Shown: piece by piece, positions 7,848 to 43,197 of the stretch
How the letters are laid out: each line of letters opens with the position of its first letter
Numbering within the stretch: position 1 is the first letter of the stretch
Origin: an uncultured bacterium
GTDB lineage: Bacteria; Patescibacteriota; Gracilibacteria; Absconditabacterales; Absconditicoccaceae
Assembly: GCA_937872535.1 (NCBI GenBank)
Contig: CALMTC010000019.1
Coordinates: 1-54,466, forward strand
DNA: 54,466 nt
Direction of reading: 5' to 3'
The notes under the pieces: generated by a model
What the model was told of the DNA's origin: nothing
Databases searched by the model: none
The model's input: only the letters and a program-made list of their open reading frames with translations
Program-made: the position numbers and the translations under genes

Positions 7848-8605
7848 AAGAAGGTTTACATCCTACTAGTTCTGATGAGGATCAAAGTCTGTGATCATCC
7901 TCTTTTTTGCCCAATATAAATCTTGAATTCTGAAGCATAGAGGCGTCTTGACCTTTGATAGCCAACAACAGTAGTGACTTCCGTGATATAGTTATTAAAC
8001 AGTACGCAGAACAAGTTGAAAAGCTTACAAATGACTTATCAATCTTAGACACTAAAAATCAAAAGATTGAAAAGAACCTAAAGCAATTGACGAAAAATGT
8101 AACTAAAAATGTAAAAGCACTATCTAAGAATAAAACTGATTTCATTACCATGTCTGGTATTTTTATCTCTATTTTCACATTTATTTCGATAGAGATAAAA
8201 ATATTAACTGAAATAACTGATTTGTTACGTTTAAGTGGCTTTACTATAATTCTGGCATCTCTATTAATCTGGTTTGTGCTCCTTATTCACATAGTTGCTT
8301 CTAAGCGAATCAATGATGAGTACTCTCCACCACCAGAAAAATATCACATCGCAGCGATTTTATGAGTTCTTATTTGAATCATATTAGTCACAATGGGCGA
8401 TTATAACAATCCTTCTGTCACTAAAATAAACAACAAAATTGCCGAGTTAACAGGCAAAATAACAATATTTGAGGAACAACTAAAGTTACTTGAAAAAAAA
8501 GTTGAAATTCAAGACTCAGAAAAAACAGTAGATCATGATTTTAACCCTATCATCAATTTACCGGAGAATAATGTCCAAAACCTGAAGACCAACCAAACTC
8601 AATAA
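7841..8605 (+). CDS. Membrane protein with coiled coil, partner of the preceding gene
   Basis: 254 residues. A polar N-terminal 40 residues is followed by a Lys/Asn/Glu coiled coil (about 50-105). Two membrane helices follow at about 107-160 (FITMSGIFISIFTFISIEIKIL; FTIILASLLIWFVLLIHIVAS) and a third at about 172-186. A second coiled coil and an Asp/Asn-rich tail end the protein. The topology resembles membrane-effector proteins of defence systems, but no named domain is recognised. It overlaps both the upstream soluble protein and the downstream HTH gene. Confidence 0.6.
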
Positions 8606-8930
8606 CTCAACTGTCAGAAAACTCATAGATGGCTTTAAGAATGATTTTACTGACAGTGAGGCTTGTTCTTATGCTGGAATTTCCAGAGATACCTTTTATA
8701 GACATCTCAAAGAAGATAAGGACTTTTCTGACAAAATAGAGCAAGCTAAGAACCTCATCTTCATCTTAGCAAAAAAGAACATTCTGAAAGCAATCAGGAA
8801 GGGAGATTCAAAAATGAGTCTGCGATTTTTGGAGAAGAGACAAAGAGCGACATATTGAAAGGAAATCCCACCAACAGAAGAACCAACCACTCCAAGTGAC
8901 ATTTTCCAACGAAATTGAGGAAATTTTTAA
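8571..8930 (+). CDS. HTH protein resembling phage terminase small subunit
   Basis: 119 residues. It starts SKTGRPTKLNNSTVRKLIDG, then has a helix-turn-helix SEACSYAGISRDTFYRHLKED at about 29-49. The end follows the pattern KAIRKGDSKMSLRFLEKRQRATYGKE. This is the typical layout of TerS / phBC6A51-type HTH proteins (GRP-x-KLT, HTH, AI-x-GD, LERR, YG). TerS binds the packaging site of phage DNA. No large terminase is nearby. It overlaps the previous gene by 35 bp and is followed by hairpin element A. The 14713 gene occupies the same place in the second unit. Confidence 0.68.
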
Positions 8931-9051: not shown

Positions 9052-9204
9052 GCCTTCGGAAGCAATTAAAAAACAACCCGTCTCCATGAGACTTAAGATT
9101 TTTCGTAAAGGATAAAGTTGGACGTATAGCCCGACCGACTATCCTTTGTGAAAAATCGGGTTGTTGCTTCCGAAGGCGCATTTACGGGTTATGCGTCCTT
9201 TTTT
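9052..9204 (+). ncRNA. Element A: long hairpin with loop-to-3' pseudoknot ending in a T run
   Basis: The outer stem of 14 bp (9052-9065 with 9164-9177) is perfect. A second helix pairs 9073-9080 with 9157-9164, and an inner hairpin exposes loop GGACGTATAGCCCG (9120-9133). That loop pairs over 14 positions, with two G-U, to CGGGTTATGCGTCC (9185-9198), immediately followed by TTTTTT. The same architecture with different bases occurs at 15306-15474 and on the - strand at 38743-38902. It could be a terminator-based regulatory RNA, an attachment or packaging site, or an origin. It lies 36 bp before a secreted-protein gene. Confidence 0.7.
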
Positions 9205-9240
9205 GTATTTAAAAAATTTTTATTTTTTCTCGTTTACCCT

Positions 9241-9708
9241 ATGAAAAAATCTACCTTGGTTACAATTATTGCTTTTACTACATTATTTTTAGTTTCTCAG
9301 TGGTCTGGTACTGCATTTGCAAGTGATGAAATTATAGTTTCTTATCAAGTTAATGAACAAGATCAGAAAATCGTTATTGCCATTACCAAAGCAGTAGAGA
9401 AATTGATAGCAAAAAAAGGCGAAAGTAAACGTTCTAGCTATATTTCTCAGCTCAGCACGATTAGTGAAGCTTATAAAGAAAATATCAGGATTCATATGAT
9501 ACTTTCAGAGGTCATTAAAGCTATCTCGCCAGTCATTGAAGAGCCAGCTATCGTCCCATCAACAAATAATAACGAAATAGAAGAAGACATTACAGAAACT
9601 GATACTGATTTTGATGCTAACACATACTATACAGGTCCGAGATGAGGATGCTATTACTACAATAATAATTGAAATAAAACTTATGTAGATAGCTCATATT
9701 GTAACTAA
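9241..9708 (+). CDS. Secreted protein with C-terminal GPRGGCYYYNNNGNKTYVD motif
   Basis: 155 residues. A Sec signal peptide (MKK, then hydrophobic residues, cleavage near TAFA-SDE) is followed by a helical region. An acidic Thr/Asn-rich linker then leads to a C-terminal motif, TGPRGGCYYYNNNGNKTYVD. That short motif is known from phage, plasmid and large-virus proteins (PBCV-type basic adaptor-like repeats). I take ATG 9241 because it starts the signal peptide; the in-frame extension upstream lies inside element A. Its counterpart after element B is at 15519. Confidence 0.65.
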
Positions 9709-12955: not shown

Positions 12956-14122
12956 TTACTGTTTTCATTTACTATTCAAGAAATCAGATATAAATCATAA
13001 CTTCTCTAAAGTATGCATAATTCATCTCAACAAGTAATTATTTACAAAGTTAATAGTATAAATCCTTCCCTTAGGGGTTATAGAACTAACTATTCCCTTC
13101 TTTCTTAGCTGTGCTATGGTACGAGATTTTTGTACCGAATTATTTATTCAAAATTTATTCAGCTCCTCTGCTTTGATTGTCATATCTTTAGAATTAATAA
13201 GATAGCTCAATATTTTATGTTCTTTATCTGTTATATGTTCCCTCTCTAGGGCAAAATCTATTGTGGGTATTAAAATATTACTTCTTACATATGTTCATTG
13301 GAGTAAACTATCGATTTTTTCAATCTCATTCTTCAGTCAAAGCAAGAAATATTCACACCAACTTAAAATATCATTATCTTTTAACGAATCTGCTTTTGCT
13401 AACATATCATAGTATTTTTGCCTGTTAGAGTAAAATATTGCTGAAGAATTTATAATTCTTCATTTTTTTACTTGGAATCACATTTTTATTAAGAAAGCAT
13501 ATGTAAGCACTCTTCACATTCTACCATTACCATTATCAAATGGATGAATATAGGCAAAACGATGATGAGCTATAGCCACCATTAATAGTTGATATTGTTC
13601 TCTGTGAGAAGAATTAGTGAATTTAACAAATTCATCGAAATAATCTTGCACAACCTTAAAATCAGGTGGAGTATGCTTCGACCCTGTAATAGTTACATTC
13701 ACTTTTCTTAAATCTCAAGGATTTTTTGACCCCTCTACCGAGAGGTTTTCTGTAATAATCATATGTAATTGTGAAATATAGGCACGATCTATTGCGGTTC
13801 TTTCTAATGTATTATCCTCAATAAAGCTCATTGCTTTTTCTATATTTTGGATTTCCTGGTTTTTTTCTTCTTCAGATAGTTTTTTTTCAATAATTTTTTC
13901 TACATATTCAGCTAATGTCGTATTATTTCCCTCTATTCTGGCAGATCCTAAAGTTTCCATAATATGAAATATCTCTTTTAATTGAAAAAAAATATAGGGA
14001 GGAACGGTTCCTGATAACTGCTTAGACCTCAACTTTTCCAAGTCTAAAATAATATTGGCAAGATCACTTCCCCACAAAGGATCTGGAATTTTTATTTGAT
14101 TGTTCATATCACTACTTATCAT
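12956..14122 (-). CDS. Fic-domain protein (AMPylase-type) with N-terminal inhibitory helix
   Basis: 388 residues. The active-site motif HPFDNGNGRMGR spans residues 193-204; Gly203 is TGA-coded, so in the standard code the protein would end just before the final Arg. The N-terminal motif SARIEGN (60-66) fits the Fic inhibitory helix (S/T-x3-E-G/N), here in cis. The C-terminal 110 residues look like a winged helix (TDKEHKILSYLINSKDMTIKAEELNKF). Fic proteins transfer AMP or other groups to Ser/Thr/Tyr. This class is common as single genes in genomic islands. It faces three 89-bp repeats upstream of its start. Confidence 0.85.
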
Positions 14123-14135
14123 TAAGTAAAACTTT

Positions 14136-14402
14136 ACTTATCAATAGCATACATAAAACACCCTTATTTATCAACACTTTCTCCCATATTTCTCTTCAAC
14201 TTACTTATCATTGTCCAAAACATTACTTATCAGTAAGACATATAAAACACCCTTATTTATCAACACTTTCTTCCATATTTCTCTTCAACTTACTTATCAT
14301 TGTCCAAAACATTACTTATCAGCAAGACACATAAAACACCCTTATTTATCAATGTTTTCTCTCACATTTCTCTTCAACTTACTTATCATTATCCAAAATA
14401 TT
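14136..14402. repeat. Three tandem 89-bp repeats upstream of the Fic gene
   Basis: Units start at 14136, 14225 and 14314, each exactly 89 bp, with a fourth partial copy (ACTTATC) at 14403. Each unit contains several ACTTATC/TTTATC words (GATAAGT on the other strand), like clustered binding sites. Copies differ at a few bases, mostly in the third. There are no spacers, so this is not CRISPR. Likely roles are a promoter or operator array for the Fic gene, or iterons. Confidence 0.9.
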
Positions 14403-14483
14403 ACTTATCTATAAAATCTCCATTAAGCTACATACATAAGTAATACTTAAAATTTAACCTAAAAGATATTGAAGACTCAACTC

Positions 14484-14518: not shown

Positions 14519-14712
14519 GATCTTAGAAAAACAATACAAGTAAATTGTCAAAACTAGCGACAAAATCAGACACAAAAACAGCCCCTTTTTGTCGTGGGGT
14601 CAAAATAGAAACATAAGTCAATAACTATCAAACGAGCAAGGGAGGGGTGACAAAATGAAGCACAAATCGTGCAAAATAAATGCAAAAACTTTACAATTTT
14701 ACAGTACAAGAA

Positions 14713-15267
14713 ATGGCGAAAAAGGTGTGAGGGGGCGACAAACACGATTGGGACACTATGAAGCAGGAGTATATCAAAGGTGATGTGCCGTCTGTTTCAG
14801 AATTTCTAAGGCACAAAATAGGCACTAATACGGCACTTTCTGGAAATTCAAAGAATAAGACCAAAGGATGGCGTGAGGAAAGGTCTGAGTATTGGGACAA
14901 AGCCTATAAGTCACCGAGAATAACAACCGAACAGCAGAGGAATTTTTCGCTTGCTTTTGATGAGCTGACGGAGATATTGCTTGAATATGCTCAGGCACTG
15001 AAAAAGAACCTGAGACATAGGATGAAAGATAGTGTAACAAAAACTTGAAAGTATGTACCACCAATGGTGAGTATCGGCGAGATGCAAGCTATATTCGATT
15101 TCATATCACCCTTTATGAGTTGGAACAGATGATCAACGGCGGATGAAGATCAAGCAAAATTTGATCTCGTTGAGAAACTCAAAATTTGCTATGAGAAACA
15201 AAGGAAAAGTAGAGAGAACTTAGCAGAACGAAAAGATAGACTCAAAAATAATCACTACAACTTCTAA
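14713..15267 (+). CDS. Terminase-small-subunit-like protein of unit 2
   Basis: 184 residues, starting at ATG 14713 (MAKKVGGGDKHDWDTMKQEYI). It then has a region PSVSEFLRHKIG followed by KTKGWREERSEYWDKAY. The pattern D-W-x(3)-Y-x-G...G-W-x-x-R matches the N-terminal HTH part of TerS-like phage proteins. The C-terminal half is Lys/Glu-rich helix. As with the gene at 8571, it is followed at once by a copy of the hairpin/pseudoknot element and a secreted-protein gene. The two HTH proteins are not close in sequence. Confidence 0.55.
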
Positions 15268-15305
15268 AGGGTTGAAAAAATAGCAGGAATCATTACCTTT
15301 AAATT

Positions 15306-15474
15306 GCCTCGCAGGCAATTCATAAACCACAATTCGAAAGTAGTGCATCTGATGCACAATGTTTTTGTAGCGAACAAAGTAGGAGGTATAGCCGACCGAA
15401 CTGTTTGCTGCAAAGCTCTTTTCGGGTTGTGGTTTGCTTGCGAGGCACCCATTTACGGCTATGCCTCCTTTTTT
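15306..15474 (+). ncRNA. Element B: second copy of the hairpin/pseudoknot element
   Basis: Stems pair 15306-15313 with 15439-15446 and 15324-15332 with 15427-15435. An inner hairpin presents loop GGAGGTATAGCCG (15382-15394). This pairs over 13 positions with CGGCTATGCCTCC (15456-15468), followed by TTTTTT. Compared with element A, the loop bases changed from GGACG to GGAGG and from CCCG to GCCG, and the 3' strand changed to match. The outer stem sequence is also different but still paired. An extra hairpin GTGCATC/GATGCAC is inserted. It lies 44 bp before the ATG at 15519. Confidence 0.72.
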
Positions 15475-15518
15475 GTATTTGAAAAAAAGGCTTTTTATGT
15501 TTTTACCCTCTATACCCT

Positions 15519-16511
15519 ATGAAAAAAATCATTGTTTTATTCGTTTGTTTTTTGGTTGTCTCTGTAGGCTATGCTATGGACTACAAACCAACAAGTAGCG
15601 ATCAAAAGATGGTAACTAACTTTGGCTCACAACTAGAAATCTTGGTAAAGTCTGACCTTGAAAGAGCAAGGACAATTAGTCAGAAGGTCAAAACGCTTGT
15701 CTTGAGCTTGAAGCCCTGAACTAAAAATCACTGGATCATCTCTTTGATTGGATCAAAACTTGATGAGCTTATTGCTAAGAAAGACTCAGAAATTGATCTG
15801 AGTGGTGGCTTTGATGCTTTGTCGTGACTTACCAAGGTTTATCAAGCAATTAAATTTGATAAGTTTATTACTGCGTATGAAAAGGCTGTTGTATCAAACG
15901 CCGATTACCAAGTTTTGTGAGTGGTCTGGTTTGATAAAACCAATATTAAGACTAAGGATCTTTCAAAGATATTGGAAGGCGTCGGTGATAAGAAACCATA
16001 TTTTTATATCAAGCTGTGAAGCGGGTCAATTATACCTGTTGTATGAAAAGCTGTCAGTCCTTTCGTCACTATGCAAGAACAGACTTCCTATAGTATTTTC
16101 AAAGTACCAAAGAACAGCATCGATACGGCACAACTTTTTATAACGGACAAGATAACTTGTTCGGTTGATGCAAAATACTGTGAGTGAACTTTTGTCGCGA
16201 ATTTAAAAGATATTCCTCTCATAAGCTACTCATCTTCAGAGCAGACCAAACGAGAAGCATCAGAGGCGGGGCAAATTTGCAAACAGAACTCTTGGATTTT
16301 CTCTATGTATGATTGCAATAAGACTGCTGATAGAGATGCTTTTGAATGAATGAGTAAAACTCTCTTTAATCATTTTGAGAGTGATTATGATTTAGAAATA
16401 AGTGATAGCAATGTTGGTGCTCATTACTGTAAAGAAACTAATCTTGGTAAAGAGTGCCTATGGATCAGCGACCGTAAAGTGAACTCCATCACAAACCTCT
16501 ACTACAAATAA
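15519..16511 (+). CDS. Secreted protein, 330 aa, after element B
   Basis: A Sec signal peptide (MKKIIVLFVCFLVVSVGYAM, cleavage near GYA-MD) precedes a soluble domain with several Cys in its C-terminal third (ITCSVDAKYCEGTF, QICKQNS, YDCNKTAD). No family is recognised. Its place directly after element B mirrors the secreted protein after element A. The extracellular location suggests a surface or host-interaction cargo of the mobile unit. It contains seven TGA-coded Gly. Confidence 0.6.
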
Positions 16512-21101: not shown

Positions 21102-21126
21102 TCATTACTCTTAAAACCAGTAATGA
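21102..21126 (+). promoter_or_regulatory. Hairpin over the Rep1 start codon (possible nick or binding site)
   Basis: TCATTACT 21102-21109 and AGTAATGA 21119-21126 form an 8-bp perfect stem with a 9-nt loop; the Rep ATG lies in the right arm. TATAAT at 21085-21090 is about 35 nt upstream. The same hairpin covers the start of Rep2 at 29881. It could be an HUH nick-site hairpin or an autoregulatory mRNA structure. Confidence 0.55.
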
Positions 21127-22082
21127 ACACTATCACAACAGTAAATCCCAGTAAAACACAGAAAAAGGTATTTTTCTCAACTATTGAGAAATTTAAGAAA
21201 AGTCAGGCTCTCAAAGAAAAGCTTATTCCCTATTTGGAAACCCACTACCCCAACCTTCTCAAGAATCCAATTAGAAAACAAAGAATTAGAGAGTGTTGCA
21301 ATATGGTTGCCTTTCGTAGGTATTTAGAGACTGGTGATGTTCAGCTGGTATCATCAAACTTCTGTAAATATGACAGGATTTGTATTGCTTGTGCTACCAA
21401 AAGAGCGATGAGAATGATTAAGAAGTTTTCTGAATGAATGGCACAACACAATCTTTATGAAAAGAACTGGTACTATATTGTTTTGACAATAAGTCACAAA
21501 CAAGGCAACAAACTTTCTGATCTTATGGATAGATTGATGCTCTACAAGGAAAGGCTAGCGAGAGCTTACAGAAATAGCAAAAGAGATAATCAGCCAAATA
21601 AGAGTTTTTTTAGTAAATTCGATGGTATGGTAATCTCTATTGAAATTGCTCACAAAGGGAAAAATGGATGGCATCCGCACATCAATATTTTGGCTTGTAG
21701 TAGTGATGAGATTTCCATAGAGAAAGGAAAATATGTTAAAGGCGACACAAACCCCATTCTTTTGAATGAGCGGAAAGAAATAACTGGTGGCACAAGCTAT
21801 ATCCACAATATTCGTGAAATTGAAGTTAAAAAAAACCACTTCTCAAGAAGTGGTATCGGTGAGGTGTTTAAATATGCTATTAAATTCAGTGATCTGACTA
21901 TGGAACAGCTTGCAGAGGTTATGTCTGTACAATCTAAAAAACAGTATCGTTTCTTTGCTACCTATGGTATATTTAGGGGCTGGGAGGTCGGAAAAGGTTC
22001 AAAATATGAGTGAAGCTGGAAAGATGGGGTATTTTTGTATGACAGAAATAATAAAAAATACGATTTAGCAAAAAACATCTAG
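21123..22082 (+). CDS. Rolling-circle Rep / HUH endonuclease, copy 1
   Basis: 319 residues. A Cys-rich N-terminal segment (FCKYDRICIACATKRAMRM) precedes the HUH core: motif 1 WYYIVLTISHK, motif 2 HPHINILAC (H-x-H of HUH), and motif 3 GEVFKYAIKFSDLT with the likely nicking Tyr. This is the order of Rep_1-type plasmid initiators and IS91-like transposases. A near-identical gene lies at 29902 in the same orientation, and the 8 kb between them carries the minus-strand sugar/antibiotic-like cluster. Confidence 0.8.
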
Positions 22083-29880: not shown

Positions 29881-29905
29881 TCATTACTCTTGAAACCAGT
29901 AATGA
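29881..29905 (+). promoter_or_regulatory. Hairpin over the Rep2 start codon
   Basis: TCATTACT 29881-29888 with AGTAATGA 29898-29905, the same stem as at Rep1 with one loop base changed. Conservation of both arms and position supports a functional site. Confidence 0.55.
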
Positions 29906-30870
29906 ACATTATCACAACAGTAAGCCCTAGTAAAACACAGAGAAAAGTTTTCACCTCTACAATCGAGAAATTCAAAAAGAGCCAACTACTGAAAGAAAGA
30001 CTTATCCCCTATTTGGAAACCCACTATCCCAATCTTCTCAAGAACCCAATCAGAAAACAAAGGATTAGAGAGTGTTGCAATATGGTTGCCTTTCGTAGGT
30101 ATTTGGAAACTGGTGATGTCCAGCTTGTCTCATCAAATTTTTGCAAGTATGACAGAATTTGTATTGCTTGTGCTACCAAGAGAGCTATGAGAATGATTAA
30201 GAAGTTTTCTGAATGAATGGCTCAAAATAACCTTTACGAAAAAAAGTGGTACTATATCGTTTTGACAATAAGCCATAAACAAGGTGACAAACTTTCTGAT
30301 CTTATGGATAGACTAATGCTCTACAAAGAAAGGTTAGCGAGAGCTTATAGGAACAGCAAAAGGGACAATCAGCCGAATAAAAGTTTTTTTAGTAAATTTG
30401 ATGGTATGGTGACCTCTATCGAAATTGCTCACAAAGGAAAGAATGGGCGACATCCACACATCAACATATTGGCTTGTAGTGACAAGGATATATTGATTGA
30501 AAAGGGCAAGTATTGGAGATGAGAAACCAACCACGACCTTCTCAATGAACGAAAAGCAATCACAGACGGCACAAGCTATATTCACAATATCCGCCATATT
30601 GAAGTCAAAAAAGACCACTTCTCAAGAAGTGGTATCGGTGAGGTGTTCAAATATGCTATAAAATTCAGTGATCTAACTATGGAACAACTTGCAGAAGTGA
30701 TGTCTGTACAAGCAAAAAATCAGTATCGTTTCTTTGCTACCTATGGTATATTTAGGGGGTGGGAAGTCGGGAAAGGTTCAAAGTATGAGTGAAGCTGGAA
30801 AGATTGAGTGTTTCTGTATGATAACACCTCAAAAAATTACTCTCTTCTAGAGATGCAAAAAAAACATTAA
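29902..30870 (+). CDS. Rolling-circle Rep / HUH endonuclease, copy 2
   Basis: 322 residues, nearly identical to copy 1 through about residue 305 and different only in short patches (KYWRGETNHDLL) and at the C-terminus. HUH motif RHPHINILAC, motif 1 YYIVLTISHK and Tyr motif FKYAIKFSDLT are intact. DNA homology between the copies begins at AGATATAAT just upstream (29855) and ends near the stop. The stop overlaps the convergent gene at 30867. Confidence 0.8.
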
Positions 30871-36780: not shown

Positions 36781-38694
36781 TTATTTAACCTCTATATCAT
36801 AGGTTTCAAACAGCTCTTCACCCAAAATATCAATAATTTTGATTGCGAGGGTGAACTTTCCTTTCTTTGAATACTGCCAACTATAAGAACCTTTGACCGT
36901 TTCTTTTTTAGATGGATTATCGATAATCTCGGCATTGAATAACTTATCATCATAGTCAGCATCAATAGCTATGCTGTCTATAGTCTGCTTTCGATCTTCA
37001 ATGAGTGTTTTATCAGACTTCCCTTTGTTTTCTATTTCTAGCTTTTTAAGTAAAACTGGCGAAATAAAATCGTTTATAGAAATTGATAAATCTGATTTTT
37101 TTACTTCAATTTTACATTCCAAAACGGGTTTCTCTTTGAATATAATGCCTTCTTTTTCAATAAGTATATCTCTGACATTGATTGTACAACTGGTCGTGTT
37201 TTTCTTTCTGATATATGCTTCAATATCCAGCTCTTTTCCGCTACAAATAATATCAATATCGTAGTATTTCAAAGGGCTATTTGAGTAAATATAGTCATTC
37301 TGGTTAGTTTCCAAATGAGTCATAATATCGTCTATGTCTTTCTTTGAAAGAATGCGATTTGGATCAATGATTTTCACATACGATCAGGAATTTTTACCGT
37401 CAAAATAGCCTCTCACCGACTCTACACCATAACTTTCCATCAAAATTTCCTTATAAGTCGCAATACCTTCATCTTTGTTTTTAAAAAGATTGTATTCGTT
37501 TACATTGTATACCTTAAAGGCAAGCGGTGTAGTAAGAAATCATTTTTTCTCTTGTTCAGAAGATCAATCTATGTAATGAAATGGATTTCAATCAGGCAGA
37601 ATTGATCATAAAATATTTGTATGGTCTTTTGGATCTGGAATATGCACATTAGCAAAATGAAGTGTCCTACGCTTGGAAACCTCAGCACGATCTTTGATTT
37701 GTTTTTCAATAATAGTATTTAACCTGCTAATAGTTGTATTGATTGCACCTGTATTGATGTCACAACCTATCCACTTACGACCAAGTTTTTGAGCAACTGC
37801 AATTGTTGTGCCACTTCCCATAAAACAATCCATTACAAGGTCTCAAGGATTTGACGAAGCACTAATAATTCTTTCAAGCAATTTTTCAGGTTTCTGAGTT
37901 GGGTAATCCATCTTCTCAGAGCTTGTCGATGCAATAAATGGTATATCCCAAACATCAGTTGCTTTTTTATCGTATGACATCTCATAGATAATATTACCGT
38001 GTTCATCTCTTGCTCTCATATTTTTACCATCTCTCCCTTCTCTTAGACTTTGTTTTACTGGTGTTTCACGAATTATTTTTATAGTATTAAACTCAATGCT
38101 ACTCGTCTTCTTATAAAAAAGGATTGTATCATAAGATTTTGGAAAAGACTGAGAAGAAGCACTCATCTTATTGGTATAGTTCCAAATAATTTCATTTACA
38201 AAGTTTTCTTCACCAAAAATTTCATCCATAATACATCTCAAATGATGATTTTTATGCCAATCGCAGTGTAAATATATCGATCAATTTTCTGTCAATAATT
38301 CTCTCAGCAATAAAAGCCTTTCATACATAAATTGTAAGTATTCATCTTTTCATCGAATATCGCTATATTGAGCCTCTTCAAAAAGGTTTTGTTCTTTTCC
38401 TGCTAGCTCTTTTCATCTGAATTTTATCGTTTTGACATAGTCAGCTTTACTATCAAAAGGCGGATCTATGTATATGAGATTTACTTTTCATCTATATTCT
38501 TTGAGTAAGTGAGAAAGCACCTGAAAGTTATCTCACCAAAAAATCTTGTTGAACTCTTGGCTTTCTTTGTCTCCATACACCTCTTTTTCTTGAGATGGGT
38601 AGTAATCTATATGAAGTTGGGCGGTTTTACCATCCCAATTGAGCATTGGGCGTCCTTTGGCTTTGATGAGATTTTTTTCAGTTTTTTCTGACAT
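36781..38694 (-). CDS. mod: Type III modification methyltransferase Mod (beta-class N6-adenine)
   Basis: 637 residues. YIDPPFDSKADYV is the DPP[F/Y] catalytic motif IV near residue 75. DCFMGSGTTIAVAQKLGRKWIGCDI near residue 290 is the SAM-binding motif I. The order IV before I is the beta class used by Type III Mod proteins. The C-terminal 200 residues (from VKIIDPNRILSKKD) form a separate strand-rich domain, read through by a TGA-coded Gly. It heads the six-gene operon that includes res. Element C lies 49 bp upstream. Confidence 0.88.
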
Positions 38695-38742
38695 AACAAA
38701 AAAGTGCTTATGGAGTAAAGCACCGTTGGTATGAGTCTATAC

Positions 38743-38902
38743 ACAAAAGAGACGCATTACCGGCGGGGCTACCCCACAAATTGGATTTTTAAAGTCACAA
38801 CCGTGAGCCCGACGATAACACGCCTCAGCTTGTAAGTTATGACTTTAAATAACCCAAAAATGAGCTATTGGTTTTTTCCAATTTATTTTTTTGTGGGGTA
38901 GC
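38743..38902 (-). ncRNA. Element C: third copy of the hairpin/pseudoknot element
   Basis: On the - strand. The outer stem GCTACCCCACAAA / TTTGTGGGGTAGC (38890-38902 with 38768-38780) is perfect over 13 bp, and AAAGTCA/TGACTTT forms an inner stem. The apical loop GAGGCGTGTTATCG (38813-38826) pairs over 14 positions, using G-U, with CGGTAATGCGTCTC (38749-38762). This is followed by TTTT. Primary sequence differs from A and B almost everywhere, yet the helix plan is the same. It precedes mod by 49 bp. Confidence 0.65.
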
Positions 38903-38935
38903 AAATTCAGTATAAATTTACTCCCTAAAATTACA

Positions 38936-41148: not shown

Positions 41149-42888
41149 ATGAGAGATAGCAAGAAAAAAGCGAACAACCTCAGATATGACTTACAAACTA
41201 AAAGTCTTGTTTTTGATAAAAAACCAGAAAAGCAAAAGAATAACTGACAGAAAAAAGCAATCATCTATACGAGGGTTTCGACTGAAGAACAAAAAATAAA
41301 GTGAAACGGAATCAATGCACAAATGCAAGATTGCGAAAGATGGGCTAAAGACAATAATATTCAAATTATAGGTTATTATAAAGATGAAGCAGAACCGTGA
41401 AAGAACCTTTGAAGAAAATGATTTATAGAGGCCATTTCTTTTTTAGAAAAAGAAAATAAGAAGTGAGTAAAAGTAGACTTTTTTATTTGTTGAAGCACCT
41501 CAAGGTTTTCCAGAAATCACAATGTAGGAAAAAGTTTTGATATGGTTGGAAGAGTTGAAGCGACCTGAGCAAAGCTAGTGGCTGTTGGTAATGGTTGAAT
41601 CCAAGAAACAGATTCTGAAGAGTGACTTATAAGTTTGACACTTAATTTTATGGTAGATGCCCTAGAAAGTAAAAGGTGACAGAAAAGAGTAAGAAATTGA
41701 CAAAAAGCAAAAGTATATGAATGACTGCGACCTTTCCCTGATGTTCCACTATGATATGAAAGAATTATCGAAAAGGTTTGATGAAAAGAAATAAAAATAC
41801 TTATACAAAAAGACCCTCAAGCCAGCATTATTCGTGAATGACTGGAATTATTTGCAGAATGAGTCCTTCTTACAAAACAACAGCTCCATAATTTTTTCGA
41901 TGAAAGATGACTCAAATCCAACAGTAAAAAGAATAAAACAGGCAAGCTTCACGAAAGTATTATTGATAGAATTCTTGATATACGAAAACTCTATGTTTAT
42001 GCTGGCTATATCACCTATCCTGATCGAGGTATAAACGAACTCGTGCCAGCAAAACATCAACCTCTTATAAACTTAGAAATAGTTGATAAGATTATGAGAA
42101 GACTTTATAAGGATTGAGACATTACAAATCATAAAAAAAGAGCCTATGACGAAGATGCTTCAGAGTATCCTCTAAAAAGAATTTTGCTGTGTCCAAAGTG
42201 CGATAAAGCCGTCACTAAATGGAAATCTAAATCAAAAACCTGAGATTATCATCACTATTATGGTTGTAATACTAAATGATGTTCTTTGTTTAAAAAAGGA
42301 CTGCCTAGAGAAAGCGTCCACGAAGCAGTAAGAGAAAAATTAAGATCAATTTCCCCTCCAGCTTCAGCGTTAGTATTATTTGAAAAAATCTTCTTAGAAG
42401 AACGAAAACAGGCAGAAAAAGACATTGATGTTATCAACAAAGAAAGGAGAAACAAAATAAGACTTATAAAAGATGAGATGGATAGAATAGAGGCTATGCT
42501 CGATAACATAACTAACAATCAATTATTTGAAAAAAAACAACAAAGACGAGCTGACCTTAATCAAGAAAAGGAGAACTTAGAGTATGCGATTGAAGACATC
42601 AGATTTACACAGAATGAGTTTGTAAGTACCTTTAATGAAGCAAAAACAGTCATTGGCAATCCTCTTGTTATATGGGATTTACAAGATACTGAGTTAAAGC
42701 AGTTATTAATTAGAGTGTGCTTCAACAATAAAATTTACTATACAAAAAATCAAGGATTGCACACCCCTGAAATCTCAGTTATTTATTTATCTTTGGGCGA
42801 TTTATCATCTGATAAAACCCCTAATCTGGAGATGACGGGAGTCGAACCCGTGTCTAAAAGACAGAAGAAGAATGGTCTACCACAATAG
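41149..42888 (+). CDS. Large serine recombinase 3, its end running into ssrA
   Basis: 579 residues. Resolvase domain from about residue 42: AIIYTRVSTEEQ with the catalytic Ser, VDFFICGSTSRFSRN, and a Gly-rich QETDSEEGLISLTLNFMVDALES. The recombinase domain follows (PFPDVPLGYERI), then a zinc ribbon (LLCPKCDKAVTKWKSK, YGCNTKGC) and a coiled coil at about 410-490. The last 20 codons (from 42827) are antisense to the 3' end of tmRNA. Such overlap is what integration at the ssrA 3' end leaves behind. Confidence 0.88.
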
Positions 42889-43197
42889 TTTGCTTGATTT
42901 TTCCCCGCAGGACTGCGGGGCGACTTGAGCCAAGAAACAGGCGTCGGTCTTTTGAAAAGAGGGCCAGTTTTCCTGCTGATTCGCTCCGTTCTTAGCAGGA
43001 GTGGGAGACGGAGTTAAAGCTTTCACTTAGCGACCTTTTGAGGGGTTGACTACGCAGCGTATGCGTGGTTGAAAGCGGCAAGTCTCAAGTTAGAGTTTGC
43101 ATTTTGGATTTTGATAGATTCTTTTGGATTCGGTACTATCATCGAATAGTGGCTGATTAATCTCCTGAGATTCTTTTATCAATACCAACACATCCCC
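42827..43197 (-). ncRNA. ssrA: tmRNA (ssrA), tag ANSNLRLAAFNHAYAA
   Basis: The 5' GGGGATG (43197-43191) pairs with CATCTCC at the 3' end. The T-arm reads GGGTTCGACTCCC, and CCA is not encoded. The tag frame GCA...TAG (43100-43050) reads ANSNLRLAAFNHAYAA, ending in the protease-type AYAA. A GC-rich hairpin CCCCGCAG/CTGCGGGG fits a tmRNA helix. tmRNA rescues stalled ribosomes with SmpB. The tag is longer than the common 10-11 residues and contains no TGA codon. Confidence 0.9.

Follow-up and report, generated by a model that had tools for sequence, protein, structure and literature searches.

A probably new family of pseudoknotted RNAs in Absconditabacteria

Two similar elements, here called A and B, within a 54,466-nucleotide stretch of bacterial DNA (the window) belong to what is probably a new family of six RNAs, all from one bacterial family of Absconditabacteria that uses genetic code 25. 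The element spans approximately 155 to 170 nucleotides, and its six copies retain base pairing through extensive sequence change. On balance we are evenly divided on whether it is an undescribed 5′ leader RNA that controls the transcription of accessory genes by choosing between stop and read-through. To our knowledge, few regulators are known from the episymbiotic Absconditabacteria, and in a limited literature search we came across no structured regulatory RNA described from this group. A compact, well-supported fold represented by six sequences with defined ends and downstream genes can be tested directly, and it would enlarge the set of RNA families and perhaps supply a new regulatory switch.

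Elements A and B differ by compensated changes

The first-pass annotation of the window had proposed that B differs from A at two helices in ways that preserve pairing, and had called this direct evidence of selection. All of the strings that it quoted for A and B are present in the window. The change from GGACG/CGTCC in A to GGAGG/CCTCC in B is a true swap of a C-G pair for a G-C pair. The change from CCCG/CGGG to GCCG/CGGC is also compensated, but it is not a second such swap. Rather, one C and one G that pair with each other have been lost, shortening the helix from 14 to 13 bp, and an adjacent G.U pair has become G-C. The outer stem (P1) of B is likewise altered yet paired as claimed, although the 8 bp quoted for it fall short of the real helix. 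The strands of this stem are GCCTTCGGAAGCAA/TTGCTTCCGAAGGC in A and TGCCTCGCAGGCAA/TTGCTTGCGAGGCA in B, the latter forming 13 to 14 bp that include one G.U pair.

The helix formed between loop and tail is a pseudoknot, a feature that the annotation had not recognized, and it comprises 14 pairs in A and 13 in B, where the T preceding the T-run gives one more. The complete architecture consists of P1 (12–14 bp), an asymmetric A-rich bulge, P2, and a three-way junction carrying the small hairpin P3 and P4. The large apical loop of P4 begins with AAG, and part of it forms 12 to 14 bp with the 3′ tail just before the T-run. Both A and B fold far better than shuffled versions of themselves (Table 1). 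With these two copies alone, 17 of 52 pairs are changed on both sides, a count that none of 500 shuffles reached with the same hand-edited alignment. Selection on pairing was the correct verdict, but two copies were insufficient to show it.

Table 1. Locations of the elements, their pairing strands, and adjacent features. Coordinates refer to the window unless a genome and contig are given.
Feature	Location	Strand	Description	Evidence or remark
Element A	9052–9205	+	Architecture as in B	CM 133 bits; fold z −7.95
A, pseudoknot 5′ strand	9120–9133	+	GGACGTATAGCCCG	
A, pseudoknot 3′ strand	9185–9198	+	CGGGTTATGCGTCC, then T6	
Gene downstream of A	9241–9708	+	Small secreted protein	N-terminal part weakly similar to the protein after B
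B, promoter	15272–15299	+	Sigma70-like, TTGAAA-16-TACCTT	Ends 5 nt before P1; weak taken alone
Element B	15305–15475	+	P1/P2/P3/P4 and loop-tail pseudoknot; ends TTTTTTG	CM match 107 bits; fold z −6.3; pair counts
B, P1 5′ strand	15305–15318	+	TGCCTCGCAGGCAA	Read from sequence; structure prediction
B, pseudoknot 5′ strand	15382–15394	+	GGAGGTATAGCCG, in the P4 apical loop	
B, P1 3′ strand	15434–15447	+	Ends TTGCGAGGCA	
B, pseudoknot 3′ strand	15456–15468	+	CGGCTATGCCTCC, followed directly by T6	
Gene downstream of B	15519–16511	+	Secreted protein (signal peptide), code 25	
Gene downstream of F	36781–38694	−	N6/N4 DNA methyltransferase	Pfam PF01555, E 6e-57
Terminator-like hairpin after F	38698–38723	−	GTGCTT/AAGCAC and T6	Ends 3 nt before the methyltransferase start codon
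Element F	38743–38903	−	Divergent third copy in the window	Five-copy model, filters off: 31 bits, E 1e-4; fold z −7.2
Element C	G010:C5:25842–26006			A+B model, whole-genome search: 55 bits, E 2.9e-9
Element D	G030:C7:18773–18932			A+B model, whole-genome search: 40 bits, E 5.4e-6
Element E	G046:C2:8235–8392			Four-copy model

Four additional copies occur in the window and in related bacteria

A covariance model (CM) was built from A and B only, without the pseudoknot, and run on 49 genomes of the bacterial family and 353 of the class. Elements C and D belong to two further genera of this family and E to another genome. Element F, which lies at 38.8 kb and was missed by the annotation, was also recovered independently by a scan for the architecture; it has a P1 of GCTACCCCACAAA/TTTGTGGGGTAGC and a 14-bp pseudoknot of GAGGCGTGTTATCG/CGGTAATGCGTCTC. 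The window thus holds three copies (A, B, and F), and three related bacteria hold one each. Copies are rare, being present in 4 of the 353 genomes of the class, all four in one family, although the genome search pre-filters its candidates and may overlook copies as divergent as F elsewhere. Elements A through E measure 154, 171, 165, 160, and 157 nucleotides; each of them finishes immediately at a T-run of six or seven residues, and F ends at TTTTG. A coding function was dropped from consideration because these lengths and the paired one-base indels break any reading frame.

Several other matches were discarded. CM matches in genomes G141 and G665 lack the pseudoknot, and one of them lies within coding sequence. 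A genome pattern scan gave five matches, among which D and E are real and the others were rejected. A first viral pattern scan returned 120 chance matches; later viral pattern scans returned none, nor did blastn searches against phages and plasmids. Searches of Rfam 15 with A through E individually, and with F as part of a scan of the whole window, yielded only chance matches below the curated cut-offs.

Pairing is preserved in all six copies

The first-pass annotation had named a covariation test with more copies as the check on its proposal, and uncompensated variation in such copies as the result that would speak against it. We ran this test, and the four added copies (C–F) vary at the positions in question with compensation; uncompensated variation did not occur among them. 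The pseudoknot comprises 12 to 14 contiguous pairs in every copy, and no covariance model contained it. When the natural 12-bp pseudoknot cores of the six copies are compared, 72 of 72 cells pair, and only one of the 720 possible assignments of 5′ to 3′ strands pairs fully, which is the true one. For P1, 8 of 12 pairs carry changes on both sides, with 98% of cells paired. The remaining helices, P2 through P4, covary as well, again beyond what the annotation had described, and P4 contains one U.G pair that is the same in all of A–E. In the hand-edited alignment of A–E, 38 of 52 pairs are changed on both sides, compared with 0 of 500 shuffles. Note that the alignments (A+B, and later A5 and A6) were edited by removing length-variable bases, such as the extra P2 pairs of B, so that columns match. 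This editing leans toward the structure, whereas the 72-cell and permutation checks on natural sequences are independent of it. The original observation is confirmed by these data and was understated.

Inverted repeats arising by chance might be expected in a compact, AT-rich genome, but we consider this explanation close to negligible given fold z scores of −6 to −8 and compensation across six copies. Furthermore, in an architecture scan of 1.5 Mb of sequence from the bacterial family (3.1 Mb counting both strands), A–F were the only loci with at least 12 pseudoknot, 10 P1, and 11 P4 pairs, a cut-off that was picked after the copies had been seen. No shuffled or viral control locus matched at the same values.

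The pairs themselves bear on whether the hairpin acts as DNA. Among the paired columns of A–E there are 24 G.U cells and 4 A.C cells (p = 9e-5 on the assumption of independent cells). A DNA hairpin would favor neither, and therefore the excess of G.U argues that the plus-strand RNA is under selection. The window does contain HUH Rep_1 genes, serine recombinases, and a terminase-small-like gene, as might suit a hairpin used in single-stranded form during recombination, rolling-circle replication, or packaging. Such a role is nevertheless very improbable in our judgment, since the element also has a promoter and a T-run, and the genes read around D and E include no recombinase or Rep within approximately 10 kb.

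Promoters and downstream genes

All six copies are preceded by a sigma70-like promoter whose −10-like hexamer ends 5 to 7 nucleotides before P1, and TTG is present at −35 in every case. The promoter-like sequences are TTGCTT-17-TATAAT for D, TTGCAA-16-TATAAT for E, and TTGTAA-16-TATACT for F; that of A, like that of B, is weak taken alone. A gene on the same strand begins 14 to 56 nucleotides downstream in six of six copies, and so each copy has the arrangement of a leader, with a promoter on its 5′ side and a gene just beyond its 3′ end. We infer that the element is the 5′ leader of this gene.

The main rival explanation is an independent, trans-acting small RNA, in which promoter, fold, and terminator form a complete gene and the neighbor is incidental. 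We regard this as possible, at roughly one chance in three. It would account for the promoter-like sequence and the T-run that bracket A–E, for the stable closed fold, and for the diversity of the neighbors, which are unrelated apart from those of A and B (secreted, membrane, DNA methyltransferase, and unknown proteins). Relatives of the gene downstream of D in nine other genomes also lack the RNA, and no element was found with orthologues of the gene downstream of A. However, a same-strand neighbor in every one of the six cases has a probability of 1/64 by strand alone, and the interval between the last T-run and the ATG is too short for a second promoter in D (14 nucleotides, with the upstream gene divergent) or in F (3 nucleotides). 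Moreover, the alignment of A and B begins at P1, crosses the T-run, and extends to ATGAAAAAA of the next gene, including its ATG (0 of 2000 shuffles), and the same test found no homology upstream of P1. This pattern, together with the weak similarity of the two proteins, links the RNA with the gene that follows it. The sequence TTTACCCT, which occurs four times in the window, lies shortly before three start codons (9233, 15502, and 16515) and may be an initiation or promoter motif.

The downstream genes do not show the conserved link to one pathway that is expected of a riboswitch. Because they are unlike one another, and because relatives of the D gene lack the RNA, control by a single metabolic pathway is unlikely.

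Proposed mechanism

If the element is a leader, it would set whether RNA polymerase stops at the terminator or reads into the gene. In A–E, the tail has an alternative partner in the 3′ end of P1. The two can form a hairpin of 6 to 7 bp immediately ahead of the T-run, only modestly significant in each copy taken singly (p = 0.04–0.09), and this hairpin would exclude both the base of P1 and the pseudoknot. The fold with P1 and the pseudoknot would then be the read-through state, and the hairpin of P1 3′ strand and tail the stop state. Element F lacks this hairpin and instead has a separate terminator just before the ATG (Table 1). Forcing the terminator hairpin costs 0.5 to 7.6 kcal/mol, with the pseudoknot not yet counted. 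The fold with P1 and the pseudoknot is so stable that it appears not to need a ligand, and either a trans-acting small RNA or a processive antiterminator would also be compatible with this.

Processive antitermination by RNAs of the HK022 put or Bacillus EAR type, whose nascent fold binds RNA polymerase so that terminators in mobile-element operons, the one immediately after the RNA included, are ignored, offers an analogy that we consider rather unlikely to hold here. A constitutively stable pseudoknotted fold with a terminator immediately behind it is what such an RNA might look like; the downstream genes are unrelated, and several copies reside in islands that also carry large serine recombinases and terminase-small-like genes. 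On the other hand, D precedes a single gene, polymerase contact is only postulated, and likeness to put or EAR was checked through the Rfam search alone, which gave no match. In a broader form, to which we assign a slightly higher but still low probability, a new class of leader RNA would have spread with accessory islands and would make polymerase resist termination, thereby controlling entry into mobile or accessory operons in a CPR lineage with code 25.

Relation to known RNAs

In its logic, the putative leader comes closest to pseudoknotted attenuator riboswitches and to put/EAR antitermination RNAs. Transcription-attenuating riboswitches such as those for fluoride (crcB) and preQ1 likewise precede a gene and have a pseudoknot strand that overlaps a possible terminator hairpin. 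They differ from the present element in its very long pseudoknot (12–14 bp), the absence of a common downstream pathway, and the lack of an Rfam match, and a ligand role here is only hypothetical. EAR and HK022 put are stable leader RNAs located near terminators, on phages or in operons of unlike genes. This resemblance of setting extends to our element, for which an interaction with polymerase is hypothetical and Rfam gives no match to either; EAR was described as the epsC motif (PMC2864571). In the odc1 motif (PMC8632094), P1 is extended and capped by a large loop, and this loop pairs with a terminal strand to make a pseudoknot. There, however, it is the 5′ end that pairs with the loop, whereas here the 3′ tail does so, P3 and P4 are added, and the taxa differ.

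Phage phi29 pRNA is similar in size and in the complexity of its fold, and A follows a terminase-small-like gene. A terminase-linked, pRNA-like RNA was nevertheless dropped because C–F do not follow such genes, and no packaging ATPase was identified nearby. The gene just upstream of A (8535–8930) matches a terminase small subunit (PHROG 4102, E 8e-16); the one just upstream of B (14680–15267) looks similar in layout and matched no family.

Genomic setting

The window derives from a genome of 1.25 Mb whose genes are open under code 25 only (TGA = Gly). In L139 (8161–9807 and 12406–16719), an OLD-like nuclease gene (PADLOC Old, E 5e-70) lies upstream of copy C and two large serine recombinases lie downstream. 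Within the window, three copies of a 124-nucleotide unit, 85 to 90% alike with 89-bp spacing, occupy positions 14113–14414 and adjoin the start of a Fic gene (12956–14122, minus strand). Near-identical HUH Rep_1 replication genes (21123–22082 and 29890–30870) flank approximately 8 kb of ATP-grasp, glycosyltransferase, and ABC genes, which suggests an integrated rolling-circle plasmid or composite element. Finally, the end of a large serine recombinase gene (41149–42888) falls within the 3′ part of the tmRNA gene (42824–43197), an overlap that suggests integration at tmRNA.
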